NCBI RefSeq assembly: GCF_965363235.1
Contig: NC_134846.1
Span: 1,927,001 to 1,991,000, forward strand
Direction: 5' to 3'
DNA length: 64,000 bases
Source of the DNA: Mytilus galloprovincialis
Taxonomy: Eukaryota > Mollusca > Bivalvia > Mytilida > Mytilidae
The notes below the pieces were generated by a model. The model was not told where the DNA came from. It searched no databases and was given only the letters and a program-made list of their open reading frames with translations. Below are positions 2,930-59,912 of this stretch, piece by piece (position 1 is the first letter of the stretch; every line of letters starts with the position of its first letter). Both the position numbers and the translations under genes were made by a program.

Positions 2930-3689
2930 TGATAAGAATAAATAATGCAGCTACGTCTCGGGCTAAAATGAGGGTCTCGGGATGATACCTGGGCCGATAT
3001 GGAAAAGGCCATGTATTAATCTCTATTTTATCATATACTTATAGAAAATAATGGTATAATTGTAACCAATGATAACACTTATTTCTGCATAAAATTATTC
3101 ATTAAATTTGAAGAATTTTCGTAGCCTTCTGATATTACTTTTGTTTTCAACTGCTTCCAGTATATATCAACTACTCCCGTTTCATATCAACTGCTTCCGG
3201 TTATTATCGCATGCTTTGTTGTAACGTTATTGCATGACATTTCGACGTCATTTAGCAAATTTCGGAAAATATAACAGAATGCTGTTTATTTGTTTGTAAA
3301 ACACAACAAAGTTGGATAAAAGAAAATATTAGGAATCAGGAAAATATATTATTAAAAAACTAATAACAAATATTACAACAAAAGCATTTTTTCAAAGTTT
3401 TACAAATAGTTGTTGTCTGTATATCTTCTCTTGAATTATAAGAATTTTAAGAAATAATTAACACTAATACCAAACGATTATTCGACATTTACATAATAAT
3501 ATTAAAGGACTATAAAACTTAACAGTTTGGAGCTTTGTTGTACTAAAGTTATTTTAATAGAGGACACAAATGCATGATCATTCTGGACAGAATTATAATG
3601 TTTTGCTACTTCTTTAAACATTTCTATAATTTGTGATAAATAGTTGATAACATGTTCGTTTCCGTCGGTCTGATTTCATTCGAAAACTA

Positions 3690-3900
3690 AAGATTTTCTA
3701 ATCCAAGGCATGTATTGCCTAAGACGTATTTGGCGCAATTTTTTGAAATTTTGGATCCTCAATGCTCTTCAACTTTCTATTCGTTTGGCGTTATAAATAT
3801 TTTGATATGAGCGTCACTTATGAGTCTTATATAGACGAAACGCGCGTCTGGCGTACTAAATTATAATCCCAGTACCTTTGATAACTAATTATTCCCTGTG
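3690..3900 (+). repeat. Hammerhead-bearing repeat, single old copy
   Basis: Shares with the units at 42.6-44.3 kb the order: 'TATTTGGC', 'CTCAATGCTCTTCAAC', the hammerhead segment, then 'ATCCCAGTACC' and TAACTAATTA. It appears to be an older solitary copy inside the inverted-repeat block. Confidence 0.6.
3811..3854 (+). ncRNA. Type I hammerhead ribozyme motif, degenerate core
   Basis: Arms GCGTCA / TGGCGT can pair as stem I, GTCT/AGAC as stem II, and GAAAC followed by a GUC cleavage triplet is present at about 3837-3848. The first conserved box departs from CTGATGA, so self-cleavage is doubtful. Alignment with the clean copies at 42890 and 44237 supports the assignment. Confidence 0.6.
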
Positions 3901-15859: not shown

Positions 15860-15922
15860 GTAAGTAAATACATATATTTTACATGAAATTGTGAGAGTAA
15901 CACTTACTTCCATCACTGTATT

Positions 15923-17350
15923 GGATACCTAAACTACATAAGTGTCCTTACAAACAACGGTATATTGCTGGGTCTTCCAAGTGCTCCACGAAACCTCTTT
16001 CTAAATTATTAACATCTATTTTATCAGCAATCAAAGACGGGCTTCCAAGTTATTGTGAAACTGCCTATTCTAGAGGTGGCGTGAATCAGATGTGGATACT
16101 TAAAAGTTCAAAAGATCTTTTAGAGTACATACAATCTAACTCTCTTTCATCTTGTAACAGTATTAAAACATTTGACTTTTCTACTCTGTACACAAGTATT
16201 CCACATTCCAAACTAAAAGACAAATTGAAAGAGTTGGTATTACTTTGCTTCATAAAAAAGAATGGCCAACGTAGATACAAGTATCTTGTCTTAGGGAGGC
16301 ATAAATCCTACTTTGTAAAGAATCACTCTGATTCAAACAAAAAATTCTCTGAAACTGATATTATCAAGATGCTTGATTTCTTGATTGACAACATATTTGT
16401 TACGTTCGGAGGACGTGTTTTTCAACAGACTGTCGGCATTCCAATGGGAACAAACTGTGCCCTTTACACGCCGACTTGTTTCTTTATTATTATGAGGCTG
16501 ACTTCATGCAGGAACTTCTTAGGAAGAAAGACAAGAAGTTAGCAATATCCTTTAACTCTACTTTCCGCTATATAGATGATGTTCTTTCACTAAACAATTC
16601 AAAATTTGGTGACTATGTGGAACGCATCTATCCAATCGAACTAGAGATAAAGGATACTACAGATACAATTAAGTCGGCTTCATATCTTGACTTACATCTA
16701 GAAATTGACAATGAGGGTCGGTTGAAAACAAAACTTTACGACAAAAGAGATGATTTCAGCTTTCCAATTGTGAACTTTCCATTTCTAAGTAGCAACATTC
16801 CAGCAGCACCTGCATACGGGGTATATATCTCCCAATTGATACGATATTCCCGTGCTTGCATTTCCTATCATGATTTTCTTGATAGAGGTTTGCTGCTCAC
16901 AAGGAAGCTATTAAACCAAGAGTTCCAAATAGGGAAGTTGAAATCATCCCTTCGTAAATTTTACGGACGCCATCACGAGTTGGTTGACCGTTATGGAATA
17001 ACCGTTTCACAAATGATATCGGATATGTTCCTTACGTCGTAACTACAATCCCCTTCCCTTTCATGAATATGACCTACCGAATTATACTATTTACCGGATT
17101 TGTAATCACATAAGCAACACGACGGGTGCCACATGTGGAGCAGGATCTGCTTACCCTTCCGGAGCACCTGAGATCACCCCTACTTTTTGGTGGGGTTCGT
17201 GTTGTTTATTCTTTAGTTTTCTATGTTGTGTCGTGTGTACTATTGTTTTTCTGTTTGTCTTTTTCATTTTTAGCCATGGAGTTGTCAGTTTGTTTTAGAT
17301 TTATGAGTTTGACTGTCCCTTTGGTATCTTTCGTCCCTCTTTTATAATTC
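15923..17350 (+). mobile_element. Penelope-like retroelement, 5'-truncated copy 1
   Basis: Reverse-transcriptase signatures in order: LPKLHK-type start near 15923, FDFSTLYTSIPH near 16170, GIPMGTNCA near 16435, FRYIDDVLSLNN near 16565, then the downstream thumb region to a stop near 17042 and a 3' tail to about 17350. The style fits Penelope-like elements rather than LINEs or LTR elements. It is truncated at the 5' end, lacks any endonuclease region and has about one break. It sits in an intron of the Ank-Roc-COR gene, same strand. Confidence 0.75.
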
Positions 17351-18569: not shown

Positions 18570-20781
18570 GTGAATAATATTGACTATATACATCAAATCA
18601 GACTTAACTTATTAAACGTACATATCAAAACTGAAACAGTTTGAAAGCAATATGGCCACCGAGAACCTAATACCTGTAATGCCAATTTGCAAGAGGGAGT
18701 ACATACATGTGTTTTAATAGTTTCTAATCTTGAAATGTTTTTTTTTTTAAATCATTGCTATTAATCATGTCAATACCAAAATACTGACTACCAGGTGAAC
18801 AGTATTCTATAAAATGAAATTTCATGAATTCTTTTTCACTGAATATCAGCTAGTGTGTAATTTTTCATACCCTTTTGAGAAGCAACTGTTATGACTTTAT
18901 TTTTCTTTTAGATGAATACAAATTTGTTGGTTAAGAGACTCATATTATAAGGGTTGAAAAAATAACTAAGAATGAAATCCTGTCGCCTACAAAGCGTAAT
19001 TAAAACTTAATTTGCAGTTTTTGTCATATTCTGATTAATTCAACTACTTATAGTAGTATACGGGGTATATATCTCCCAATTGATACGATATTCCCGTGCT
19101 TGCATTTCCTATCATGATTTTCTTGATAGAGGTTTGCTGCTCACAAGGAAGCTATTAAACCAAGAGTTCCAAATGGTGAAGTTGAAATCATCCCTTCGTA
19201 AATTTTACGGACGCCATCACGAGTTGGTTGACCGTTATGGAATAACCGTTTCACAAATGATATCGGATATGTTCCTTACGTCGTAACTACAATCCCCTTC
19301 CCTTTCATGAATATGACCTACCGAATTAGACTATTTACCGGATTTGTAATCACTTAAGCAACACGACGGGTGCCACATGTGGAGCAGGATCTGCTTACCC
19401 TTCCGGAGCACCTGAGATCACCCCTAGTTTTTGGTGGGGTTCGTGTTGTTTATTCTTAAGTTTTCTATGTTGTGTCGTGTGTACTATTGTTTTTCTGTTT
19501 GTCTTTTTTATTTTTAGCCATGGCGTTGTCAGTTTGTTTTAGATTTATGAGTTTGACTGTCCCTTTGGTATCTTTCGTCCCTCTTTTATAGGTATTTATA
19601 CAGCTGTACTGCATGATGGAAGCTTTAAATATCTTATATTATTAGCATTCTTATTTTTGTTGATCATCGTAACCTTTTCAAAAACATAGTAACCTTGTCG
19701 AATAGATATTTCTATATTATACTATAAATTTGTGTTATACAAAATAATCATCATGGCAAATACCGATACTAGTACACACATGACACACTTGTAATCATTT
19801 ACAATAATAAATGACAATACGAAATAGGAAAAATGAATTTAATAAATTTGATGAAATCGTATATGCTTTTGACCCATATAGTACGAAATGGATATGATCA
19901 GAAATACACAATGAAAAAAACTTTCTGTCCAAAATGGCAAACTTTGCGTACGGAATGGTGATTTTTAGTACAAAATGGAAACGACACGAAAAAGGCATGG
20001 TCAGAATGACTAGATTACTACGGTACCTTTTCCTCCTTCATACTAGGACTCTCCTGTAAAACAACATCAATAGTCAATGATCTGATAGAAGAATGATACC
20101 TTAACCGATAGGACAATGGGAATTTATTAATATGTAAAAATTAAGGAAATGATGCATACATGCGTAGTTGCCAATAAGATCTATACACCAAAGTTTAAAT
20201 GAAGGGGATATAAGCAATTATAAATACCGTACTGTCTTCAACAATGAGAAAAATTCCTATCGTAAAGACGACTATAGATGGCCAAAACATGAAAATATGA
20301 ACAACTTAATTGAGAAAAACTATCGGTTTTAACCGGCTCCAGAGTTTAGACCTTCACATATATAGTGTGACGAGGTAAACTTGTTTAAAGGTGCCAACCC
20401 TTCCTCTACTCCTACCCCCAACCGTTTATCATTTATCACGGATGTTTAATGTAAGAACGCACACATGATGATAAACCTGAAGTTTGTGTTATTTGGTTTT
20501 CAGTATTGAAACATTTTATAAAACTGTTTTTGTAAGTAATTAGTGAACGCGATGTATGGTTACATTTCTTTTGATGATTTGATTAATCGTTATGGAATAT
20601 TGGCTGTGACATCACCAATATGTTATTTGCTACGAGCTACACGACGTATGCAACTACATACATCGAATTGATTACTTACCCCAGTGCAATCTAAGTTGCT
20701 GTTTCAAACTGTTGTTTGTCTTGTCGTCGTAGTTATTTTAGGTAATGGTTATGTCTGGAATTTTTAGTTATGGTTTTTAAG
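18570..20781 (+). other. Intron content: Penelope 3' copy and other repeats
   Basis: Holds the second Penelope-like 3' fragment (19056-19593), a family E repeat (about 20110-20300, GTCTTCAACAATGAG) and a decayed Penelope end at about 20560-20650 (CGTTATGGAATATTGGC). Confidence 0.6.
19056..19593 (+). mobile_element. Penelope-like retroelement, 3' fragment, copy 2
   Basis: Almost identical to 16817-17347 of copy 1 (start TACGGGGTATATATCTCCC, end CGTCCCTCTTTTATA) with only scattered differences over about 530 bases. It is a severely 5'-truncated insertion, in the next-but-one intron of the same gene and in the same orientation. The high identity implies young age or recent exchange between the copies. 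Confidence 0.85.
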
Positions 20782-21147
20782 ATTGTGAAATAGTTTATGA
20801 ACCTGAACAAAAGAAGCGTCGACTGGCTACAGATGAACCAGATGTGCGTCTAGAAAGTTCTCAAGTATCCGACAAGCGTCATGTCCCCTATAACATGATC
20901 GGAGCTACTCATTCACAGATGTACAATAGAATTAAAGAAATGTTGCAAAATGGCAAATACGAGGAAAAGATCGCCCCTGTTGATATATGGGATTTTGGAG
21001 GACAAGATGTTTATTATGTAACACACCAGCTATTTATCTGTTATAGAGGAACGTTTATTTTAGTTTTTGATGGGAGCAAACAAATGAATGATCGATTAGA
21101 CGTTAAATCATATTTGCCAGGTGTTTCAGAGTATCCCACTACCTCTG
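20782..21147 (+). CDS. Ank-Roc-COR gene, exon i (Roc switch region)
   Basis: The phase-1 exon starts by completing GAT (D) and reads CEIVYEPEQKKRR and onward. It contains DFGGQDVYYVTHQLF at about 20992-21036, the Roc version of the DxxG switch II motif, then GTFILVFDGSKQ. Open throughout; donor GTATGA at 21148. Confidence 0.9.
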
Positions 21148-22019
21148 GTATGATCTAAAATAACTTCATGTTTATATATTGATAATTAAGATTGATAACA
21201 AAACGTCAGTATATTCGGAACGTGTTAATTATACTATTATTGAATTAAAGCACATCTTAATACGACCATGCATTATAATGTTGACAATAGTTTCAATTTG
21301 ATCACTTGATATTTATGATTAAATATAAGTTGTGTGCCATTATTTTTTTTAAATTTATCATACTGACACATAATTGGAAAGGGTTTTGACAATGATGAAT
21401 CATCCTTACCGTATTTTCATCTATTTTATTTTCTACCTCGCTTTGGTCGTCCGAAGATAAATTATATCTGATTCTATATAAAGACACAACAAAAACAAGT
21501 ATGGCAGGAAATACACACCAAAGAGTTTATTTTTTTAGAAACAAAACAATGTTTTCAAAATAAATTAATTGACTAAGTCCATACATCATACATCATATTG
21601 TAATTTTCACTGTTCATACTAATATCTACAAAAACAAAATACACAGAACAAGAATTATACTATGCATAATAAAACAATCTAAATGTAATAACGTTGTCGA
21701 ACAAGTTTTTTTGTGTGAAATCTCGATGAAATGAAAAGGGCGTGTAAAATAGTAAATATAGTCTTAAAACCGAGCTACTCAGTATTGCGCAACAGAAAAA
21801 GTAAGAAATCTCAAAACGAAAAGAACTACAAATAAAGTGAATGTTTCTGTAAACATTCACTGACTTTACGAAAGGGCCTTGGCGTGATATGAATTCATAG
21901 GAATCTGTTTATATCTCATTTTCCATACAGCGATGCAAAACTCACTCTAATGAAACATAAAGAAAAAAACTGCATCAAAATTATAATGTCCTTTAATTGA
22001 AGTTATGTTATTATTTCAG
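21148..22019 (+). other. Intron, nothing recognised
   Basis: 870 bases of AT-rich sequence without a feature I can name. Confidence 0.5.
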
Positions 22020-22655: not shown

Positions 22656-23891
22656 CACAGCGTAGAGAACCGCAGGCGTGAGATAACTAGATCACTAGAA
22701 ATATTATTCGAGAAACACTCAGGTCGTCATCATCTAATTTTCAATCCATTGATTTTTGTAAATGCGACTGACAAATCTGATCGTGAAATGAGAATGGTTA
22801 AAGATCAGATTGTGAGCATTGCGTTTTCACATCCAAAATGGGGTGAGCAAATGCCTGTTGTCTGGATCACATTGGAATTACAAATTGCATTGCGTGTTGA
22901 GAAAGATGAGTTTGTGCTTACTAAAGATGCATTAATAGCAATTAATACACATGAGACATCAGTATCATTGAATGAAGAGGCTCTAGAAACATTCCTAAAA
23001 ATTCAAAATAGTCTTGGCAAAATTATTTATTTTAATGTGAAAAAGTTAAACAAATATATAATTATCAATCCGCTATGTCTAATTCAAGTATTAAAATCAA
23101 TTGTCACGATAAGAGAACACTGGCCTAGTGGACCAGATTTTTCAAGAACACTACTTGAACTAAGTTCCAAAGGAATTATATCAAAAGAAAATATTTTTCA
23201 AATTGGGCAACAGCCTGAATTTAGCAACCTTCTTCCATACAAAGATTTTATGATTGAAATTCTGTGTCATTTGGACATTTTGGTAGAGCAGAAAAGGTAC
23301 GATATTGACACAGATGATCAGGTTATCGAAAGGTATTTAGTGCCATCTATGATAACTACTCCATGTAAGTCAGAATGGATTCTAGAATTGACCTCTGAAG
23401 AAAAGAGTTTGTGTTTGATTTACAACTTCGAGGAAGACATAATACCTACAGGTCTATCCTATCGTATTCTCAGCTCATGCCTTTGTATATGGGACCTTAA
23501 AACTATTAGAACTCACCTTCAACTATTTGCAGGATGTGCACTGTTCAGAATAAACCAAAATCTTGACCTCATAATAATTTTAAAAAAGAATAAGATTGCC
23601 ATATACCTTGTACATGCTTTTGGAAAGTCGAACATAGTTCGTGATGTTGCAACGAGCACCCAGGAATGTTTATCTGTGTCAATTTAGAAGATTTCAAATA
23701 TCTTGAATTCCGCTGGTAGAACTTCAACCTTGGAAATGAATGATATGCCATTTAAATTTCAAGTAAAGGCGTCCTGTGGTTGCTTTGTCGACTATGTAAC
23801 GATACAAAATGCTCCAGGTGACCTCTGGCAGTGTTCAGAGCATACAACTAGTACAGATTTAAAGCAAATGACAATTTGGTTTGCAAAAGAG
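22656..23891 (+). pseudogene. Ank-Roc-COR gene, exon k (COR domain), in-frame stop
   Basis: The largest exon, 1236 bases in one frame, begins HSVENRRREITRSLEILFEK. It matches the end of Roc plus the COR dimerisation domain (HPKWGEQMPVVWITLELQ; IIINPLCLIQVLKSIV). A TAG at 23685-23687 interrupts an otherwise open frame; after it the frame resumes with KISNILNSAGRTSTLEM and on to TIWFAKE at the GT donor (23892). Continuation of the same frame for 68 codons argues for a point nonsense change in real coding sequence, not a natural C-terminus. Confidence 0.8.
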
Positions 23892-24709: not shown

Positions 24710-25574
24710 GTAGTGTTTCAGTAATGCACTTTTTGTTTATTATATATACTGTATATACACAAGCAAGGTATATGACCTATTGGAGTAATGATTAGTAAAT
24801 ATATTATCGTAATGTAAAACAATAGTTATCTGATAATCGAGCTAGTGGTCACTGTGCCAGCAGCGCAACAACACAACACGACAAATAATGCAAACCACGT
24901 GTTAAATAGTGTTGTATATTTTATACAGAAATTAATCTCGGGTTGCGTAAAAGTGGTGAATAGCACATTAGGTATCGATTCACAACTATGTCTGGTATCT
25001 GCAAATATGAGGCTGATGTATAAACACCTCATTTGATCACGTTAAGGCAGAGTGTGAGCTTTAATCTTGGAGTCCGTCGTCTTTTAACTATTACAAAACC
25101 GTCTCCTCTTACACTACTAGGCCAATTAAAAAAAAAATTGGCAACAATATTTATCTAGTGTACACAAATATGTATTATGATCATCAACCAAGATGGTCAA
25201 CATGAAATGCAAGTTTTGTCTGTCGTTTTGAACCCCCTATAAATAGAGAAATCAGACAGGGCCGAACATGTTCAGAATGTTGATTTTTAAATGATATCTA
25301 TTTATGTCTAAACTGTCAGAAGACACGAGTTATTGCTCTTGAATTAAGAACTTTACTAATTTTTAAGTCTTGTCTATGAAACGTTGGAAATAAAAATATA
25401 TAGAAAGAAACAACAAAAATGATCAGCAAGACAGTATTCACTTTTATGTGCTGACCTAGGCTGTTATATGTGTTCGTTTATATTATGTGTTTAGTCAATG
25501 ATTCGGTGTTGACATGTAGATCTATTAGATGGTCATTTTTATAAATTTACTGTTTACAAAAGTATAAATTATTC

Positions 25575-25765
25575 TAAATACTACGGATTTTCTTATCCCA
25601 GGCAGATAACCTTAGTCGTATCTGGCACAACTGTTTGGAATTTTTGGTCATCAATGCTCTTCATCTTAGTTTGGCCTTCTTTACTATTTTGACCTGAGCG
25701 TCACTGATGAGCCTTATGTATACGAAACACGCCTCTGGCATATCAGATAACTATTAAAGGTGCAA
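25575..25765 (+). repeat. Hammerhead-bearing repeat, old copy
   Basis: Follows the family order: CCCAGGCAGATAACC, TCAATGCTCTTCATC, the hammerhead segment, then TCAGATAACTATTA. Solitary and diverged. Confidence 0.6.
25698..25741 (+). ncRNA. Type I hammerhead ribozyme motif, degenerate
   Basis: CTGATGA is intact at 25704-25710 and GAAAC is present, with GCGTCA on the 5' side, but stem II and the cleavage-side arm have lost pairing relative to the 42.9-kb copy. Probably inactive. Confidence 0.6.
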
Positions 25766-38278: not shown

Positions 38279-40535
38279 GTAAGTTTGTACAAATGCTTTA
38301 ACGCTGTACGCTGCACGAACTTTTGATGTATTTTCTAAGATTCAAAAATAATTGTGCCAGTTCTACGTTTTGAATCAAATGCATTCTGGTTGATATATTG
38401 AAAAGCGCATCATGCATCAAAGACTAAATTATCAATCGGTACACATCCAACATCCAATGGATTAAGTGTAAATACGTGGTTAACAGACGGAGAAGAACAT
38501 GACATTGATCAATGCCAAGATGCAGGTATCGACAGATTGTAGATCCATGAATGTGTATAGGCAAATAACAATAACATCCAGTTTTCTTTTGATAAAATGA
38601 TAACAAAATCGATATTAATACCAATAAAAACAATATTCAATGATCTAATTACAGTGTGGAATTTGTAACCTTTTAGTGTTGGTTTAATTAGAGAATTGAT
38701 AATTTTACCAGTATCGTTTATAATTTTCCAGACACGGTAAAGAAAATTTCCGTAAAAATCAGGATGTGCTATCCTGTTTGAAATAAGCTTTCTTCAGGCA
38801 CTACAAAACTTCAAAACCAAATCTTTATATCTAGGGAAAAATTTAGTTAAGGTTTTAAGTACTTTGTGGTAACGGATAATTTACCAGTAATACACAGATT
38901 ACGTGCTTTAAAATAAAAAAAAAACCGTCCCAACAGACATGGGCATAGAGAACTAGTTGTGGAATATAAACACCGTAAGATGGTGCCAAAGGAACATCAC
39001 AATCTAAAAGGAAAAATTAACAACAGGGAACTGGAAAATTGTCCCTCTTGTCGTAAATTTTAGTGTGGAGTTTTCCCATGTAAAGCCGAAATATCTAAAT
39101 CTAGAAAAAGGACAGTTACTACTGTTTAAATTTGATTTATTTAAAGTAAGTTCTTTTGGGTAAATTTCTACAGTATTTGTAGAAAGTTCTTGATTATTTT
39201 ACGAAAAAAACATCAAGATAACGGCAAGTATTGTTGAACTTATCAATTAAATACAATTTATACGGGTGTTTACTAAGTTTGGTCATACACTGTGAGTCAT
39301 AATAGTACAAACACAAGTCTGCTATTACAGGGGCGCAACTATTGCCCATTGGAATACCTACAACCTGTCGATAAATACTGTTTGTTGCAGGTCATGGATC
39401 GACATTTGTTCGTTGGGGGAGGAGTCAGTGTCCATCACAAACAGAGCTTGTATATTCAGGTATATAACGTTATGAAGGCTATGCTTTTAATTTAGCATAT
39501 TTATTATATATACAATATAAAGAACCAGGGTTATTATTCTATTAATATTTTAATTAATGTTATGAAGATTCAAGACAATATATATCTAAGTCCAACACAA
39601 TGAATTTTTCAAGTGATAGTTATGCATATTTGAATATAGGATCCGACTGGAAGTAAGTTTCAATAACTTTTGTGGATCGTTCAAAGGTATCGAGCTACAT
39701 TGAAAATCTAGTCATTTTAAACTTCACTCATAATTTAATCTAGTCTATCTGTTTTATCAAAATATAATGACAATTTTCATCATTCTATTTTTGAATTATA
39801 ATTTTAGTTAACATGTTAATGATTTTAAAATCTTTGAACTATGTCTAGTGTTATATCTGTGTCATTGTAATGCAATGGCTCTGTCAAATGCATGGCTTTT
39901 TTTTTTTTTTTTTTAATAAATATAGAATATATTCTTGTCATGTTTTGATTTAATGTCTACATTTGATTTAACATTTCGCATTGATGACATAGTATGATTT
40001 GTTAAGCTGTTAATCTTTTTGCTATCAAGTTTCATATAATAATTGTATACTTTTTAACCAAAAAGGTTATGCTGCTGGTCAGGAATATTATTACGGGACT
40101 AGTCGTTTTGGTGGACCATCAAATATGCTTTGCCTTCCAAAAGATCCAGAATTGAGCAATCGGACAGGATCATCAAGTAGTCGTTTGTATGGTACAGAAT
40201 TCGAAGGAAATCATTTTGCACCGGGTTCCGCAAACGAAGATGTCCCCTGTGCCCTCTGTCGCAGCAACGACACCTCTTCGTCGGTCATGATTCCTGGTAG
40301 AAAATCTTGCTACTCTGGATGGAAAAATGAGTACTTTGGTATTTTAGCGTCTGGTTGTTATAATTGCAAAGCTTCGTCGTATATTTGTGTGGATATGAAT
40401 CCTGAGTTCATTTCAGGCGGAGAGAGAAATAATGATAATAATTTGTTGTATGCAACGAGCATGAAGTGTGGTTCCCTTCCGTGCCCACCGTACCACAATG
40501 ATTTGGAAGTATACTGTGTTGTATGTTCAAAGTGA
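38032..40535 (+). CDS. Short-chain collagen C4-like secreted protein, paralogue 1 (3 exons)
   Basis: Exons 38032-38278, 39391-39459 and 40066-40535 join in phase 1 to give a 261-residue protein. Residues 1-19 are a signal peptide (MAFIIVLQLLLYFSLGFMG). Residues about 45-80 form a Gln-rich coiled coil (LELSLQQQQATNLQQQ). The C-terminal half (from about 85) is the cysteine-rich domain found in bivalve proteins annotated as short-chain collagen C4-like: FVRWGRSQCP, NMLCLP, DVPCALCRS, SYICVD, CPPY, CVVCSK. No Gly-X-Y collagen repeat is present, so the name reflects the C-terminal domain only. Likely secreted and oligomeric; function unknown. The frame is intact. A paralogue with the same structure lies 16 kb downstream. 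Confidence 0.85.
38279..39390 (+). other. Intron 1 of paralogue 1
   Basis: Holds stretches similar to intron 1 of paralogue 2 (ACTTCAAAACCAAATCTTT; AATTTAGTAA/AATTTAGTTAA; TTTGTGGTAA), then a minus-strand Penelope-like fragment (38865-39360) ending just before the acceptor. Confidence 0.6.
38865..39360 (-). mobile_element. Penelope-like retroelement fragment, different lineage
   Basis: On the minus strand, reverse-transcriptase-like pieces occur in order: an IPM-TNCAP relative, CRYLDDVFS, VEIYPKELTLNKSN, CPFLDLDIS. They resemble but clearly differ from copy 1 at 15.9 kb (FRYIDDVLSLNN), so this is another Penelope lineage. Broken in several places; old. Confidence 0.65.
39391..39459 (+). CDS. 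Paralogue 1, exon 2
   Basis: 69 bases after TTTGTTGCAG, reading HGSTFVRWGRSQCPSQTELV then YS plus one base, phase 1 at both ends. It opens the cysteine-rich domain. Exon 2 of paralogue 2 has the same role (QWGKTSCSS). Confidence 0.85.
39460..40065 (+). other. Intron 2 of paralogue 1
   Basis: AT-rich with a T-run at about 39898-39914; no repeat recognised. Confidence 0.5.
40066..40535 (+). CDS. Paralogue 1, exon 3 (cysteine-rich domain)
   Basis: Reads GYAAGQEYYYGTSRFGG and on to CVVCSK, stop TGA at 40533-40535. The start is set by the AG at 40064-40065 and phase match. Contains most cysteines of the domain. Confidence 0.9.
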
Positions 40536-42510: not shown

Positions 42511-42889
42511 GGTTGTCACCAAATGCATTTGCTTTGTAAATTAATGTTTTTCATATGATAATTTTACATTTTCCTTTTTATAATACATTTATAATAAAAT
42601 GTAGTTCAAACTTGCCAGTGGGTCGATGCCACTGCTGGTGGAGATTTATTTCCCCGAGTGTTTCACCAGCCCAATAGTCAGCATTTCTGTGTTGACCTGA
42701 GTTATCATTGATATGTTCATAATTATAAATTAACTGTTAACAAAACTTAAATTTTTTGAAAAACTAAGCGTTTTCTACCTCAGGAATATATTACCGTAGC
42801 TGTATTTGGCAACACTTTTAGGAATTTTTGGTTCTCAGTGCTCTTCAACATCGTTCTTTATTTGGCCTTTAAAACATTTTTTGATTCGA

Positions 42890-42933
42890 GCGTTACTGAT
42901 GAGTCTTTTGTAGACGAAACGCGCGTCTGGCGT
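42890..42933 (+). ncRNA. Type I hammerhead ribozyme, intact core
   Basis: GCGTTA (42890-42895) pairs with TGGCGT (42928-42933) as stem I with G-U pairs. CTGATGA is at 42896-42902, stem II GTCT/AGAC with loop TTTGT at 42903-42915, GAAA at 42916-42919. A 2-3 bp stem III (ACG/CGT) closes on the classic GUC triplet 42925-42927, with cleavage expected after 42927. The tiny stem III suggests activity as a dimer, which the tandem layout would supply. Confidence 0.8.
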
Positions 42934-43105
42934 AAATATAAAATTTTAATCCTGGTATATATGATGAGTTTATTTGCAACCACTAAGTTGATGCCACTGC
43001 TGGTGGAGATTTATTTCCTCGAGGGTATCACCAGCCCAGTAGTCAGCACTTCTGTGTTGACTTGAGTTATCATTGATCTGTTAATAATTATAAATTAACT
43101 GTTAA

Positions 43106-44093
43106 TGCGGGGTTCACACATTGCCGATTATTGCTCCCGTTTGAGATCAGACAGCGATACGACACGAAAAGTGAAAAAGCCGGATTAGTACCCTCAATTA
43201 TCTGGAATGTCCTATTATTGTCTGAACGCAGTCGTTTTAGTTCGTAACAGATTCCTTGTCGGGAAGGGTCCGAATAGTTCGACAAAGCACCACGACAGTT
43301 AGGTGCGTCCCGTAACATTCAGGGCCGATTTTGTCTAGTCGGATTACAATCGTGCCTATGACGTGACAGATTCTGCTGTATCGGATCGAATTCCTAACAA
43401 TGTTCTGCGTATTCGGGAAGGTGTCCTGTGGAACGGGAATGATCTGGAAAAAATTTTCATTGCTGTTTTTCTGCCGATTGAGTCCAGATTGCATCCAGAT
43501 CTTGTCGATTGCGAACCGTTTTTGCCGTAACCGTGCCGAAACAGTCCCGTTGTTAATTCTAAATTCGTCAATGATACCCACGTCAGAGTCCCGACAATTA
43601 CAGAATACAATACGACTGAGACCAGGCAAAGCCGTTTGCAATGCGATAGAGCGGACCGTGATAGGATTACGTTCCGACAGTACCTGATCATCCCGAGTAT
43701 GCCAACAGTTTTCAAACGGATAACTTCCGTCAGCGTCGGTTCATTGTCTTGTCACTATCTAATCTCTGTTGGAGTACATTCGGTAGAATCGGGACGCAGT
43801 CGTAACAGACTCGGTCAAATTTTACCTGGCGAAAAAGACAAATCGGACTAGAAGCGGACTTAGAACGGGATTATCGGGATAAATTCGCTTGGAAACGGTT
43901 GAATATCGACGCTTCCTGAACAATATCTGATTGTTGTCGTGATTATTTTTTTTTTTTTAATTTTAATTAAAGTTTGAATTTCCATCTACGATTCATAGGA
44001 TCTTGATCAGACTTTTAATAAATTTTAATCGGGAATGGTCTTGTCAAGGACGGCAGAAAAAATTGTGAATGTGTGACACCAGCTTAACAAAAC
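43106..44093. mobile_element. piggyBac-like non-autonomous element (TTAA)
   Basis: Flanked by TTAA at 43102-43105 and 44094-44097. The host repeat has a single TTAA at the same spot in the neighbouring unit (ACTGTTAACAAAACTT near 42738), which is the empty site. Ends are imperfect inverted repeats around TTCACACATT / inverse of AATGTGTGAC. The interior is richer in C and G than its surroundings, with no transposase. TTAA target use and precise ends are the piggyBac hallmark. Confidence 0.8.
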
Positions 44094-44236
44094 TTTAAAT
44101 TTTGAAAAAATTAAGCGTTTTGTACCTCAGGAATAGATTACCTTAGCTGTAATTGGCAACACTTTTATGAATGTTTGGTCCTCAGTGCTCTTCAACATTT
44201 TACTTTATTTGGCCTTTAAAACATTTTTTGATTCGA

Positions 44237-44280
44237 GCGTCACTGATGATTCTTTTGCAGACGAAACGCGCGTCTGGTGT
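44237..44280 (+). ncRNA. Type I hammerhead ribozyme, near-intact core
   Basis: GCGTCA (44237-44242), CTGATGA (44243-44249), stem II arms TTCT/AGAC, GAAA (44263-44266), GUC triplet (44272-44274), TGGTGT (44275-44280). The closing pair of stem II next to CTGATGA is weakened, so activity may be lower than in the 42.9-kb copy. Confidence 0.75.
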
Positions 44281-44325
44281 AAATATAAAATTTTAATCCT
44301 GGTATCTATGATGAGTTTATTTGTA

Positions 44326-44480: not shown

Positions 44481-45417
44481 TACGAGGCGCCGAATGGGAC
44501 TCTTGTGGTTTTGTACAAAATTCAATTCTGTCATAACAAAATCATTTTTGTCTTACAAAACTATGTGCTACAGACTTGTTTTGTGAGAACTTCAATTTTG
44601 TGATGACAAAATTCATTTGTGTAGACAAAATTCATTTTTGTCATGACAAAATTCATTTTTGTAGACAAAATTCATATTTGTCATGACAAAAGTCAATTTT
44701 GTCTAAAAGGTATGCAAATATAAACATATTTGCATACAAAATTGACTTTTGTTACCTGATATGGAAATTAAATCACAAAAGTCAATTGTTTGAGGTAAGA
44801 TTCAATTTTGTGAGACAAAATTAACTTTTGTGAGACAAAATTGACTTTTGTGAGACAAAATTCAAATTTGTGAGACAAAATTCAATTTTGTCAATTTTGT
44901 TGAGACAAAAGTCAATTTTGTTAATTTTGTTGAGACAAAAGTCAATTCTGTCAATTTTGTTGAGACAAAAATCAATTTTGTTGAGACAAAAGTCAATTTT
45001 GTTAATTTTGTTGAGACAAAAGTCAATTTTGTTAATTTTGTTGAGACAAAAGTCAATTTTGTCAATTTTGTTGAGACAAAATTCATTTTTGTCAATTTTG
45101 TGTAACAAAAGTCGATTTTGTATGCAAATTAGTTTACAGAAACCAAACTAAACTAATTTGAATACAAAATTGACTTTTGTCGCCCAATTTTCAAATTAGG
45201 TAACAAAGTTCAAGTCTGTGTAACAAAAATGAATTTTGTCATGACAAAAGTGACTTTTGTCCGCTGATAGATAATTTTGTATGACAAAATTTTTAATTTG
45301 TAGTATGATACAAATTTTGTTAAACTGAACTTATTTTTGTTGAACAAAAGTCACTTTTGTCCGTACAAAATTGAATTTTGAGTACAAAACCACAAGAGTC
45401 CCATTCGGCGCCCCGTA
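44481..45417. mobile_element. 937-bp palindromic DNA element with ACATG duplication
   Basis: Ends are inverted repeats: TACGAGGCGCCGAATGGGAC at the left and its inverse, with one mismatch, at the right (to 45417), extending about 45 bases (CTCTTGTGGTTTTGTACAAA). ACATG occurs on both sides (44476-44480, 45418-45422) but once in the uninterrupted family F copy (33575-33579). The interior is built of short palindromes such as ACAAAATTCAATTTTGT and a 30-bp tandem array. No transposase gene. A non-autonomous DNA transposon of unassigned superfamily. Confidence 0.8.
44870..45110. repeat. 30-bp tandem array
   Basis: TGAGACAAAA recurs at 44901, 44931, 44961, then 44982, 45012, 45042 and 45072, mostly 30 bases apart, each followed by a TCAATTTTGT-type palindrome half. 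Because 30 is a multiple of three, several frames stay open on both strands; these are not genes. Confidence 0.9.
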
Positions 45418-45589: not shown

Positions 45590-45770
45590 TTACTACTTAC
45601 TTTCTGGAATTTTGGGCCCTTAGTACTCTTCAACTTTGTACATGGTTTGGCTTTCTAACTATTTATTTTATCTCAGCGTCATGGATGAGTCTTATATAAA
45701 CAAAACGCGCATCTGGCGTATCAACATATAAACCTGGTACATTTTATAACTAATTAAAACTATGGAACAA
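45590..45770 (+). repeat. Hammerhead-bearing repeat, old copy
   Basis: TTTCTGGAATTTTGGGCCC, TAGTACTCTTCAAC, hammerhead segment, ATAAACCTGGTACATTTTAT, AACTAATTA: the family order, following directly on family F. Confidence 0.65.
45676..45719 (+). ncRNA. Hammerhead ribozyme motif, degenerate
   Basis: Aligns with the 42.9-kb ribozyme (GCGTC on the 5' side, TGGCGT on the 3' side), but both conserved boxes and the stem II closing bases have changed. Inactive by inspection. Confidence 0.6.
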
Positions 45771-48879: not shown

Positions 48880-50470
48880 TAATAAAAAATCACAACAGTG
48901 TCGGCTTGACTTCAATCTGCACTATCTAAAATGTCTTTCATTTTAGCTCCTTTGAAAAGAGCCAAGGAAGGTCCAATTGACCTAGTAGAATGTCCTTTCA
49001 CTGAAGGAATATCTTTCTTCTGTTTCTTATATGCATGTTTAATTCTCTTGAATTGAATTTTAAATGTGCGTATTGTTATACATTTACTTTTCTACATTGG
49101 CTAGAGGTTTAGGGGGGGGGGGGTTGAGATCTCATAAACATGTTTAACCCCGCCGCATTTTTGCGCCTGTCCCAAGTCAGGAGCCTCTGGCTTTTGTAAG
49201 TCTTGTGTTTTTTTAATTTTAGTTTCTTGTGTACAATTCAGAAATTAGTATGGCGTTCATTATCACTGAACTAGTATATATTTGTTTAGGGCCAGCTGAA
49301 GGACGCCTCCGGGTGCGGGAATGTCTCGCTACATTGAAGACCTGTTAGTGACCTTCGGCTGTTGTTTTTTCTATGGTCGGGTTGTTGTCTCTTTGACACA
49401 TTCCCCATTTCCATTCTCAATTTTATTTATCACTTTAACTAACCAACTTGAAATAGTTTGTGAAGACACTGGTCTATGTGGTTTATTTACAGTTAAAAAC
49501 AATTTCTGTTCATCTTTGCCATTCTTGTCTCTTAAATCCTCTGTATTATCAAATAATGTGTCAAAGCCCTCCTAGATTCTAATAATCTGTTGTTCTCAAA
49601 AGCTGGAACAAAAATAGTTGGACTTTGATCAGAAATTCTATCTTGTTTTGACAAACCATGACGTAAAAAAGTTACCACTTTTTTCTGAACATTAACTGAA
49701 CCTTCACCAATACTCAAAGATTGCAACTCCCCACATCTTCTAAAAGTAGTAATTGCAATAAGAAAAATTGTTTTCCAAGTTATATATTTCAAACTAGCTT
49801 TTTTCATTGGTTCAAAAGGTTCTTTCTTTAATAAGTCTAAGACCAAAGGTAAATCCCACTCGGGTACAAGTTTTTGTTTAGGCGGTCTCGTATTAAAAAT
49901 CCCTTTCAGTAATCTTATAATGTAAGGGTGCTGACCAACAGGGATGTTTTCAATAGGATATAATACTGAAGACAGCATAGACCTGTAACCTGCAATTGTC
50001 CTATACTGTAAACCTTTGTCAAATAAATGTGTTAAAACATTTGCATACTTTTCTAAAGAAGCTGTATAGGAATCGATATCCTGTTCAGAACACCAGCTAT
50101 TGTATCTTCTAAATTTAGCTTTGTAATCCTTTTGAGTACCTGCCCGCCAAGATGCTGACAAGAGTTTCCTAGCGTTTTCAGAAAAAACCTTTTGTTTTGA
50201 GCTGCTGGTCGATAGTAGCCATGCAGTTAACTGAAACACTTCTGGGTTCGGATGTGCCACTTTTCTCTTGCCCTGAACCAGCAGATTTTCTACTAGTGGA
50301 AGTTTTAGAGGACAAGCTACTAGTAGTTGTAACAACTGGGGATACCAAAGTTGTCTTGGCCAATGTGGAGCTATCAGTATTATCTCGAACTGAAATTTTT
50401 GCATGTGCTGTAAAATTTTTGGAATTAGTGCAAAGGGGGGGGGGGGAATGCATAGGCAAACATTTTGTTC
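48880..50470 (-). mobile_element. DIRS-like element, tyrosine recombinase region
   Basis: The main part (about 49450-50470) carries recombinase features, including FRRCGELQSL around the first catalytic arginine. A further recombinase-like stretch with HSTRS lies at about 48890-49040. A family A repeat occupies the sequence between them. Confidence 0.75.
49041..49445 (+). repeat. Dispersed repeat family A, inserted in the DIRS-like element
   Basis: AATGTGCGTATTGTTA, AACCCCGCCGCATTTTTGCG, CAAGTCAGGAGCCTCTGGC, GGACGCCTCCGGGTGCGGGA and CTCTTTGACACATTCC match 61440-61800 closely. It interrupts the recombinase region, so it arrived after the DIRS-like element. Confidence 0.8.
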
Positions 50471-50479
50471 CATTCTATG

Positions 50480-51840
50480 GACAGATCATCCTAATGCTTG
50501 TGGGTGATTCATCCATGAGCAAAACACAACTGTTTTTTTGTTTTCGTTTGTCGCAAAAAGATCGATTGTTGGATGCCCCCAATTTTGAAAAAATTGATGC
50601 ACAACTGAATTGTCCAATTCCCACTCTGTTGCCCGAATTTTTATCCGACTCAATTGATCTGCTAACACATTGTTTACTCCCGCAATGTGTGCTGCTTTCA
50701 GATAAATTTTGTTTTCTAGGGCAAACATCCATAAATCCCAAGTCCGTTGACATAGCTGAAGTGACCGAGTCCCTCCTTGTATTGGACTACCGTAACATTG
50801 TCTGACCGAATCAAAACTAGTTTGTTTTTCAAAAATTTCTGAAATTTCTTCACAGTCAGAAAAACTGCTTCCAATTCTAGAATGTTTATATGTAACAGTT
50901 TTTGCTCCTCTGTCCAAAGACCCTGAGCTGTTAGATTGTTCATGTGACCCCCCCCCCCCCCCAACCTGACTTGGAGGCATCCGTCGTGATCATAACTGAG
51001 GTCTGATTTTGTTTGAAAGATCTTCCCTGCATAATGTTTGCTGAAGACAACCACCATTTCAAATTTTTAGGTTTGGAGTACATTGAATTTGAAAATCCAA
51101 ACTCATTTTTGATGGGTTCCAATTTCGAAGTAAATTTAATTGGACAGGCCTCATAAATAACCTGGCATTCGGGATCAACTCTAGACAAGATGCCATTTTC
51201 CCCAATACTTCCATGTAATGTCTGGCTATTACCATTCCATTCATTACTTTTTGTACTGATAAAAATAGACTCTGTATCCTGTCCTGAGTTGGTAATATCA
51301 AACCTTGATCGAACTTGAACACCGCTCCCAAATAAGTGATTGTTTGATTTGGTATCAAACTGGACTTTTCGTGATTGATTAAAAAGCCTAGTCGAACAAG
51401 GAGATTCAACGTGATTTCTCGATCTATTACAAGTTTTTGTTGAAACTGATTGACACACATCCAATCGTCTAGATATACTGCTAGACGTATGTTTTGCTTT
51501 CTTAAATGGGCAGCAACTACTGACACCACCTTCGTAAAAACTCGTGGTGATGATGTTGGGCAAAAACAAAGGGCTTTGAACTGGTAAACTTGACCTTGAA
51601 CAGAAAATCTGAGGTATTACTTGTGATTTTTGAATACTTTTATATGCAAATAAGCGTCTTTTAAATCCAGACTTATTGCCCAATCTCCTTGTTTTACTAA
51701 GTTTAACACTCTTGAAATTGTGTCCATTTTGAAGTGTTGCTTCCGAAGATACTGATTCAGTGGTTTGAAATTTATAACCGGTCTCATTTGTCCATTCTTT
51801 TTTGGAACTAGAAATAATGTACTGTAAAAACCTGGCATTC
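50480..51840 (-). mobile_element. DIRS-like element, reverse transcriptase and RNase H region
   Basis: LVPKKNGQMRPVINF and DLKDAYLHI mark the fingers and palm near 51,700-51,800, YLDDW the catalytic site near 51,475, and DASKSGWGG the start of RNase H near 50,960. Fragmentary, consistent with a fossil. Confidence 0.8.
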
Positions 51841-52119
51841 TTTCTTTGACTGGTACTTTTTCTATAGCCCCTTATTCCAAAAGAGAATTTATTTCTAAAT
51901 TTAAATTTTTGTACTGACTACTGTCTTTTTTATTCCCTGAAAAGGAGGTTTTTGCAGAAACTCCAGTTTGTAACCGTCTTTGATTATTGACAGAACCCAC
52001 TGATCCTGAGTTATCTGCTCCCATTCTTGTAAAAAATGTGTTAACCGCCCCCGACCGGTATGTGTATCTTCGGAAACTTCACTTTTCTCAACTTGTCATC
52101 TAAAGTGTCCTAAGGTTTT

Positions 52120-57500: not shown

Positions 57501-59912
57501 CGCCATGGCTAAAAATAAAACATAGGGGTAAAAAGTAGATTTTGGCTTATAACTCTGAAAACCAAAGCCTGTAGAGCAAAGCTGGTAAAATTGTTTATCA
57601 TGTCAAGATCTATCTGCCCTGAAATTTTCAGATGAATAAGACAACCGGTTGTTTGGTTGCTGCCCCTGAATAGTAATTTTAAGGAAATTTTGCTGTTTTT
57701 GTTATTATCTTGAATATTATTATAGATAGAGATAAACTATAAACAGCAATAGTGTTCAGCAAAGTAAGATCTACAAATAAGTCAACATGACCAAAATAGT
57801 TGTCCCCTTAAGGAGTAATTGCCTTTTATAGTAAATTTTTAACAATTTTCATTAATTTTGTAAATTTTTGTAAATTTTTACATTATATTATTATAGATAG
57901 AGATAAACTGTAAGAGCAATAATGTTCACCAAAGTAAGATCTACAAAAAAGTCAACACAACCAAAATGGAGTTATTGCCCTTTATAATCAATTTTTAACA
58001 GTTTTTCCCAAATTTTTGTAATCTTTTACAAAAATCTTCTTCTCTAAAACTACTGTGCCAAATTCAACCGCACTTGGCCACAATCATCATTTGGGTATCT
58101 TGTTTAAAAAATGTGTGCGGTGGCCTGGCCAACCAACCAAGATGGCCGCCATGGCTAAAAATAGAACATAGGGGTAAAATGTAATTTTGGCTTATAACTC
58201 TGAAACCAAAGCCTGTAAAGCAAATCTGGTAAAATTGTTTATCAAGTAAAAATCTATCTGCCCTGTAATTTTCAGATGATTCGTACAACTGGTTGTTTGG
58301 TTTCTGCCCCTGAATAGGTAATTTTTAAGGAAATTTTGCCGTTTTTGTTATTATCTTGAATTTTATTATAGATAGAGATAAACTATAAACAGCAATAGTG
58401 TTCAGCAAAGTAAGATCTACAAATAAGTCAACATGACCAAAATAGTTGTCCCCTTAAGGAGTAATTGCCCTTTATAGTAAATTTTTAACAATTTTCATTA
58501 ATTTTGTAAATTTTTGTAAATTTTTACATTATATTTTCCTCTGTAACTAATGGGCCAAGTTCATTATAGATAGATACAATTTTAAGAAGCAAGAATGTTC
58601 AGTAAAGTAAGATCTACTAACATAACACCTTCACCAATACACAATTTTGTCATGACTCCATCTGAGTCCTTTGTTTAATATGTACATAGACCAAGGTGAG
58701 AGACACAGGCTCTTAAGAGCCTCTAGTTATATTTTCAAATATATAACCAGACTTGTCATTATATTTTCAAACATGTTCATAAAAAAGCTATCACAATCTA
58801 TTTTAGTTGTAGTCAGTATTTCTGTTGTTCCGTTGTTTTTATCGGTTTTAGTTTGTATCCCGGGTTTGTTTTTTTTCTCAATCGATTAATAACCTTTGTA
58901 CAGCGGTATACTATTGCTGCCTGCATATAAACATATCATTGATACCAGGATTAAAATTTTATATTTACTTTTCTGTATCTGTGTTTAACTTGATTCTTAT
59001 ATAAATGGTGTATTTGGAAACTTAATCAAACCTGAAAAAAATTTACCTTTGTATAATTCCGGAATGTTAATAAAGCAACTATATTGAAGATCTAGTGATA
59101 AATCAAAATTCATTACGAATGTTTGTTTTGCACATATTATATATTTTATTTAAATCACAAACATAGACATAAATGCTCCTCCCTCACTTGTGTATGTAAA
59201 GCACAATTTTATATTGATACCGCAATTCAATAGCTGGACTTTACTAACGACATTAATTGGTGGAAATGATTTAAAGGAATTTATGATTCATAAAATAATC
59301 TTTAATCAAAACATTTTTATTTGTAAATCGACCGCTGTCTTCTTATTCAAATCAAAGTGTCTTACTTAACTTACAATTTATAGAATGCAATAATTATATG
59401 TTTTTATTGATTTGTATACCAAACGTCTATTTATAGGATATACTGCAGGTCAAGAACATGAAAGTTCGTCATATGCAAACAGGTTTGGTGGAGCAGCAAA
59501 CATGCTTTGTCTCCCTAATAATCCGAAACTTAGTAATAAAACAGCACCAGGCAACAGTTTTATTTTCGGAACAGAGTTTGAGGAAAACTTTCTCAGGAGT
59601 GACGCAGTCAATGAGGATATACCTTGTGCACTTTGTAGAAGTATAAATACAACTTCTTCTGTAATGTTTCCAGGTCGGAATGTTTGCTACAATGGATGGA
59701 AAAAGGAGTATGAAGGCTATGTTATGTCTGGATACTGGGGACATAGGGCATCGTCCTATATTTGCGTTGATCTGCATCCAGACTACGTTCCAGGTGGTAA
59801 ATCTAATACAAATGGCCAGCTGTTATACGTAACGAGTACGAAATGTGGCACACTGACTTGTCCTCCTTATAACGACAATATGGCTGTCAATTGTGTTGTT
59901 TGTTCCAAATAA
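54260..59912 (+). CDS. Short-chain collagen C4-like secreted protein, paralogue 2 (3 exons)
   Basis: Exons 54260-54548, 57144-57215 and 59437-59912 join in phase 1 to a 278-residue protein. Signal peptide at residues 1-19 (MAIIVALQIILYFRSCLMG). The coiled coil (LERSLQQQQATMLQQQ and TIQEQQATIQQLK) is about 14 residues longer than in paralogue 1, through extra Q-Q-A-T-I heptads. The cysteine-rich domain has the same landmarks (NMLCLP, DIPCALCRS, VCYNGW, SYICVD, CPPY, CVVCSK). No collagen repeat. Intact frame; likely secreted, role unknown. Introns hold a Penelope tail and a large bivalve repeat. Confidence 0.85.
54549..57143 (+). other. Intron 1 of paralogue 2
   Basis: Segments homologous to intron 1 of paralogue 1 at about 55735-56000. 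A minus-strand Penelope tail lies at 56245-56640 and a short plus-strand tail piece at 56780-56855. Confidence 0.6.
56245..56640 (-). mobile_element. Penelope-like 3' end fragment
   Basis: Reverse of the copy-1 3' end: GACAACGCCATAGC, GAAATCCTGTGCCACATGTG, ACTCGTGATGCCGTC. The tail and the last bit of the coding end remain. Decayed. Confidence 0.65.
57144..57215 (+). CDS. Paralogue 2, exon 2
   Basis: 72 bases, GSTYIQWGKTSCSSMGTETV then YS, phase 1 at both ends; acceptor TATTTCAG, donor GTAAGA. Confidence 0.85.
57294..58728 (+). repeat. Large bivalve repeat with AGCTCACCTGGCC head
   Basis: Starts AGCTCACCTGGCCCAAAGGG with an internal palindrome (AGCTCAC...GTGAGCT), then a GTCCGTC microrepeat, and ends ACAGGCTCTTAAGAGCCTCT. 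A block of about 500 bases (AAATCTTCTCCTCTAAAACT onward) is repeated with a spacing of about 645 bases. No ORF. Family widespread in bivalves; class unclear. Confidence 0.75.
58790..58920 (+). repeat. Dispersed repeat family D, plus strand
   Basis: TCGGTTTTAGTTTGTATCCC, CTCAATCGATTAAT, ACAGCGGTATACTATTGC: the inverse of the 25.8-kb copy. Confidence 0.55.
58921..59436 (+). other. End of intron 2, nothing recognised
   Basis: AT-rich, no named feature. Confidence 0.45.
59437..59912 (+). CDS. Paralogue 2, exon 3 (cysteine-rich domain)
   Basis: Reads GYTAGQEHESSSYANRFGG and on to CVVCSK, stop TAA at 59910-59912. Acceptor TTTATAG at 59430-59436. Closely parallels exon 3 of paralogue 1. Confidence 0.9.

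Follow-up and report, generated by a model that had tools for sequence, protein, structure and literature searches.

Copies of a retrozyme family in Mytilus galloprovincialis and copies of an abundant Penelope-like element (PLE) end at a homologous point, which lies 5′ of a hairpin of about 60 nt common to the two elements. The most likely explanation, in which we place about even confidence, is that the family spreads as a parasite of this PLE and that its copying begins just 5′ of the common hairpin, on a template without an end. The retrozyme is of an already known kind and, judged from sequence, the new part would be the common hairpin and the homologous end point, neither of which was found in the available portions of the open-access literature (including PMC7761336 and PMC11722881), subscription papers lying outside the scope of the search. 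A common start and a covarying hairpin would name a concrete partner and an RNA signal for these abundant makers of circular RNA, and the fragment lengths would record the run of the enzyme along an endless template.

The window locus and its family

By its anatomy the element in the window (the whole 64-kb stretch of DNA that was analysed) fits a non-LTR retrozyme, a known kind of element, and its parts are listed in Table 1. The first-pass annotation had spoken of an animal retrozyme, and this was borne out by a type I hammerhead, a tandem unit of 365 bp with 36% GC, a longest ATG frame of 34 aa in the unit and 298 exact genomic copies of its 29-base tail. Short tandem repeats that are low in GC and measure about 150-450 bp are a hallmark of retrozymes, and the window unit falls within this description. 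Hammerheads of the Penelope type sit in the pseudo-LTR of a PLE together with its coding frame, but no reverse transcriptase was found within the 365-bp unit. In the genome searched (1.385 Gb in 331 contigs) the tail copies are divided into 154 and 144 by strand, and the reversed tail, used as a control, gave 0 exact copies.

Table 1. Retrozyme and PLE features of the window
Feature	Positions	Strand	Details
Broken PLE copy	15901..17345	+	ends at L131:843 like relatives
Truncated PLE copy	19058..19589	+	98.9% identity to L131:312-843; ends at L131:843
Retrozyme unit 1	42615..42979	+	365 bp, GC 0.356
Decayed start hairpin, unit 1, common with the PLE	42617..42678	+	hand alignment; fold differs from consensus
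Type I hammerhead, unit 1	42890..42933	+	Rfam Hammerhead_1 29.8 bits, E 1.5e-4; cut after 42927
Retrozyme unit 2, left piece	42980..43105	+	90% identity to unit 1
Decayed start hairpin, unit 2 left piece	42982..43043	+	hand alignment; fold differs from consensus
Insertion splitting unit 2	43106..44083	.	978 bp; TTAA both sides; imperfect inverted ends 13/16, compared by eye
Retrozyme unit 2, right piece	44084..44323	+	92% identity to unit 1; end = family's fixed 3′ end, unit 362
Type I hammerhead, unit 2, weakened	44237..44280	+	Rfam Hammerhead_1 20.3 bits, E 0.2; cut site 44274

For M. galloprovincialis, the available sections of Cervera and De la Pena 2020 (PMC7229834) describe about 5,000 type I hammerheads in repeats of ~350-390 bp, high levels of circular retrozyme RNA with cut circular RNA as the main form, and a cloned repeat that cuts at ~0.1 per min and is circularised by RtcB. 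Given this cutting by a cloned mussel repeat, action of the hammerhead as a dimer, which had been suggested for the window, is not required. The likeness to the window element lies in the type I hammerhead, the tandem repeat of ~350-390 bp, the low GC and the many copies, and is a likeness of anatomy, not of clone sequence, whereas the window locus differs in being decayed and interrupted. Those sections make no mention of the fixed end or of a hairpin that the retrozyme would have in common with a PLE. There and in the available part of a 2024 review (PMC11722881) the enzyme spreading animal retrozymes is only proposed, as 'LINEs or PLEs'; PLEs are a strong candidate mobiliser according to the authors of the former, who also report that mussels do carry PLEs with minimal hammerheads (PMC7229834).

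The type I topology and the hammerhead core can be read directly in the window sequence, and in helix III ACGCGCGT stands between the core and the cut, with room for 2 pairs and a 4-base loop; in Penelope-type hammerheads helix III is minimal and has no spare nucleotides. Both hammerheads were found where the first-pass annotation had placed them, and the Rfam covariance check that it had proposed returned Hammerhead_1 at both sites, but with scores that both lie below the gathering score of 34 (bit scores and E values from a 3.5-kb scan). No family reached its own threshold in an Rfam scan of the whole 64-kb window, and among the 20 related loci scanned one (L059, 34.2 bits) passed gathering. 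The hammerhead core pattern, allowing up to 3 mismatches, matched 4 times in the window against 0 in 100 shuffles; two of these matches are the two-unit array and two are older copies (3817 and 25704).

Two units of about 355-365 bp in head-to-tail order had been claimed, which held for the order and for a unit of 365 bp, although the second unit is interrupted by 978 bp that had gone unreported. Because this insertion puts the cuts 1,347 bp apart, and not one unit (~365) as had been supposed, the release of unit-length RNA that had been claimed cannot take place at the window locus, where a piece of 1,347 nt would lie between the cuts. Hammerhead 2 also carries a T-C mismatch in the first stem II pair, as read from the sequence. 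The window locus is a decayed, interrupted two-unit copy, a fossil, and the insertion is a candidate TTAA-type DNA transposon for which no protein was identified. Older retrozyme pieces with 72-74% identity to unit 1, together with a tail-only piece, lie at 3683-3882, 25502-25742, 45599-45742 (+) and 58922-58968 (-).

Several other features were recorded in the window. A foldback element at 44481-45417 has 36-nt ends that are 97% complementary, ACATG at both edges and, in its interior, repeats of 20-30 bp based on ACAAAATT/TTTTGT; miRNA-like Rfam matches at 44623-45371, all below gathering and within or around this A+T-rich element, were rejected. Frames of another retroelement, presumably DIRS-like, occupy 49532-51917 (-), with RVT_1 at 51062-51616 (E 5.8e-9). 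Pieces of a ROCO-type gene were seen at 20781-21155 and 22656-23684 (+), with Roc at E 1.4e-7 and COR-A at E 7.8e-5 (below cut-off). At 40014-40535 and 59394-59912 (+) there are two frames, 173 and 172 aa long, that resemble each other and matched nothing in Pfam.

Where retrozyme copies end

Ends were analysed at 70 tail places (L031-L060 and L091-L130) of the 100 listed among the 298, two in range being omitted, one of which is L088. Eight continue into a next unit, one duplicates another locus and 61 are terminal. All 61 terminal copies stop at unit 362, 49 nt past the point where the ribozyme cuts, with the qualification that the tail pattern used for sampling itself demands sequence through unit 362; beyond this position no excess of the next unit's letters was seen in the 61 copies. 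In a separately chosen set 29 of 30 ended at unit 359-365, the exception being the window array, where end-calling stopped at the insertion.

The 5′ ends are spread. The shortest terminal copy has 31 nt and the longest at least 1,092 nt, two lengths being lower limits; once the first 30 nt are set aside, the 59 complete lengths fit an exponential with a mean of 182 nt (KS p 0.34). Among the 61 copies there was no pile-up of 5′ ends at the ribozyme cut (1 observed, 1.4 expected) or at the unit boundary (0 observed, 0.2 expected); the cut is crossed by 53 of them, and 8 are longer than one unit against 9.7 expected. Cut linear monomers as template, which would give a peak of 5′ ends at the cut, were rejected on this count. 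A cut linear monomer would yield only ~49-nt copies, and the usual template is therefore uncut or religated, without a detectable end.

No target-site duplications were found in the 61 copies, where the best matches had a mean of 3.67, equal to that of shuffled pairs, and old copies may have lost them. The targets had no A+T preference overall, the flanks being 64-72% A+T throughout, and the sole skewed position was the second base after the 3′ end, which is A or T in 53 of 61 copies.

End point and hairpin in a Penelope-like element

The PLE was read from L131, a single tandem PLE junction used as reference. Its reverse transcriptase is one that we take to be of the Penelope type by its motifs, and upstream of it, in another frame in the L131 copy, stands a GIY-YIG-like stretch with weak matches (Pfam E 0.007 and NCBIfam E 0.0039, both below cut-offs), an order that we assume to be a Naiad-like layout. 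The reverse-transcriptase pieces gave no informative match in Pfam, NCBIfam or PDB. The element is accordingly called PLE-like, on the reverse-transcriptase motifs, the tandem layout and the below-cut-off GIY-YIG match. A search with the reverse transcriptase returned 150 scored matches with 7 tandem pairs 3,345-3,371 bp apart, so that an abundant element with tandem copies at a period of ~3.37 kb is described, and the window holds other PLE pieces besides the two in Table 1. A hammerhead inside the PLE was sought and rejected, none being present in the 2,773 bases of the ~3.37-kb element that L131 covers; the term 'Penelope-associated hammerhead' of the first-pass annotation could not be upheld as written for the linked element.

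When L131 was compared with the retrozyme, the sole significant match was L131:845-907 with unit 1-63 (84% identity, E 6.6e-15). In tandem copies of both elements, the end point is followed by this hairpin of ~60 nt. Forty PLE fragments from sampled loci and the window were compared, each duplicated locus being counted once. The commonest end, seen in 22 of them, is at L131:838-846, immediately ahead of the hairpin; the other 18 have different ends, and in no fragment does the sequence continue into the hairpin. A 26-base PLE tail has 2,299 exact genomic copies, and this tail together with the start of the hairpin was found at 89 genomic places, 88 of them with the same 7-base gap. The exact L131 form of the junction occurs once in the genome, and one further junction of tail and hairpin reads ACCACTGGGTCGATG and is identical to the retrozyme over 15 bases.

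Some single loci combine parts of the two elements or repeat the hairpin. Inside a PLE copy at L047:1397-1570, a 33-nt retrozyme tail stands in place of about 70 PLE bases, a single case, which could have come about through an insertion accompanied by loss of target bases or through one enzyme that copies both elements and switched template. Hairpin repeats with spacings of ~112, 136 and 174 bp were seen at C7:85774065-85774441, C9:75596693-75597276 and C5:43628254-43628669, as short PLE-derived arrays, and in the C9 and C5 arrays the PLE tail and hairpin are repeated together.

Nearly the same fold was obtained for the hairpin of the retrozyme consensus (-25.7 kcal/mol, z -2.4) and for that of the PLE (-26.5 kcal/mol, z -3.4). 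An alignment of 41 sequences was made of the PLE, the window's two and 38 hand-picked for diversity from 66 distinct stretches, and 94.2% of its cells pair over 23 pairs. The cells changed on both sides numbered 12 against 2.2 in shuffled alignments, 12 being reached in 0 of 500 shuffles, and the pairs changed on both sides 5 against 2.0 (26/500), although related sequences can exceed shuffles. Slid versions of the structure gave 44-51% pairing, a comparison in which the structure is favoured, having been derived from the same sequences. One pair is AU in 35 sequences, UA in 4, GC in 2 and broken in none. RNAalifold recovered 13 of the 23 pairs from the 41-sequence alignment, missing helix 2, and gave no structure on an automatic alignment of 62 sequences.

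A possible route of copying and its known counterparts

If the family is a parasite of the PLE, multi-unit loci would be transcribed, the hammerheads would cut the RNA and the monomers would be closed into circles, which others have shown in M. galloprovincialis. The PLE protein would recognise the common hairpin at the beginning of the unit, and reverse transcription would begin a few bases 5′ of it, at about unit 360-362 and probably on cut target DNA. The enzyme would then pass the ribozyme junction and circle the template until falling off, leaving copies that have one fixed 3′ end, are truncated at random at the 5′ end and may form arrays of similar units whose number is not whole. The steps that we infer are that the PLE protein does the copying, that it recognises the hairpin, that target DNA serves as primer and that the template is a circle and not a linear multimer. 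Against this reading count the 18 of 40 PLE fragments with other ends, two arrays that hardly exceed background (L022 and L071), a hammerhead not significantly more conserved than the body, targets with neither duplications nor an overall A+T preference, the PLE assignment by motifs, layout and a below-cut-off match, and the failure of RNAalifold to recover helix 2. Since the hairpin lies 3′ of the start point, it is next to the tail only if the RNA is a multimer, a processed monomer or a circle; if a cut monomer is closed, tail and hairpin would probably be joined on one endless template.

It is also conceivable, but in our judgement unlikely, that the PLE copies linear, uncut multimeric RNA from tandem loci, that hammerhead and circles have no part in mobilisation and that arrays are homogeneous because their sources are. 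Such a route draws on the available sections of PMC11167929, where anole PLE RNA with a mutated hammerhead was inserted as readily as wild type and the enzyme used mainly uncut RNA, for which reason the ribozyme may be irrelevant to copying; the mussel PLE is moreover itself tandem and lacks a hammerhead in the bases read. It is opposed by mussel retrozyme RNA being mainly cut and circular in the available sections of PMC7229834, and by private variants, for which most arrays are homogeneous. In a test from which L066 and L089/L090 were excluded as likely cases of local amplification, the sharing of derived bases by units of one array was 0.396, against 0.055 and at most 0.15 in 2,000 permutations. 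Over 10 arrays the within-array ratio was 0.10-0.78 against 0.057 between loci, and two of the 10, L022 (0.14) and L071 (0.10), are hardly above background, as linear multimers would allow. The within-array similarity fits several rounds on one circle, and homogeneous sources or local duplication would also fit.

Less probable still, and in our view improbable, is that the hairpin is a relic of an origin of the retrozyme from the PLE and that another enzyme, for example that of a LINE, copies the retrozyme now. LINE copies, too, have a fixed 3′ end and are truncated at the 5′ end, and the identity of the copying enzyme was reached by inference. The hairpin is however the slowest-changing part, with a divergence of 0.048 against 0.071 for the body (p 0.0005; 38 loci, least changed unit of each), and it covaries, while over the same 38 loci neither the hammerhead (p 0.07) nor the tail (p 0.42) differed significantly from the body; the hammerhead core pattern was kept in 44 of 61 units and failed in 17. 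The end point of the retrozyme also coincides with that of the PLE, and in a partial test, short tail-only copies had no common upstream sequence recognised as the 3′ end of another element. That the repeats are ordinary satellite DNA made by DNA-level duplication with an incidental hammerhead is very improbable, being largely contradicted by the finding that most sampled copies are single, truncated, scattered through the genome and fixed at one end, with 53 of 61 not exceeding one unit, although the long retrozyme array L089/L090 (C1:51664267-51666217), with a three-unit higher-order periodicity and unit lengths of about 373, 366 and 369, would suit it.

The parasite reading has its closest counterpart in the Poseidon PLE of Anolis carolinensis. 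According to the available sections of Frangieh 2024 (PMC11167929), the purified anole protein starts reverse transcription inside its own RNA, 111-118 into the frame and within a stem loop rich in A and C, and requires RNA as far as +172, ~55-60 nt past the start; the hammerhead cut lies at +26, and the start sites are where genomic copies end. The likeness consists of an internal start downstream of the cut, of RNA beyond the start and of copies ending there, and the order in the mussel is as in the anole: the cut, 49 nt, a start beside an AC-rich stretch and then the hairpin. Poseidon differs in that its start lies 85-92 nt after the cut, against 49 in the retrozyme, and in that it codes for a protein and the retrozyme for none; the anole enzyme cuts AT-rich targets (PMC11167929), unlike the retrozyme, whose targets are without overall A+T preference.

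Mussel retrozymes may, by a reading that we hold tentatively and with a little less than even confidence, be circular-RNA satellites of one specific PLE, carrying its hairpin, with the cut and closed monomer as a complete endless template. If true, this would explain the tandem layout and the retention of the ribozyme in animal retrozymes. In SINE-LINE pairs the two elements share a 3′ end, and the non-autonomous element borrows the recognition signal of its autonomous partner. The retrozyme would borrow a recognition signal in the same way, but its signal differs in lying 3′ of the inserted end, so that a single-unit insertion is without the signal downstream of its own end.
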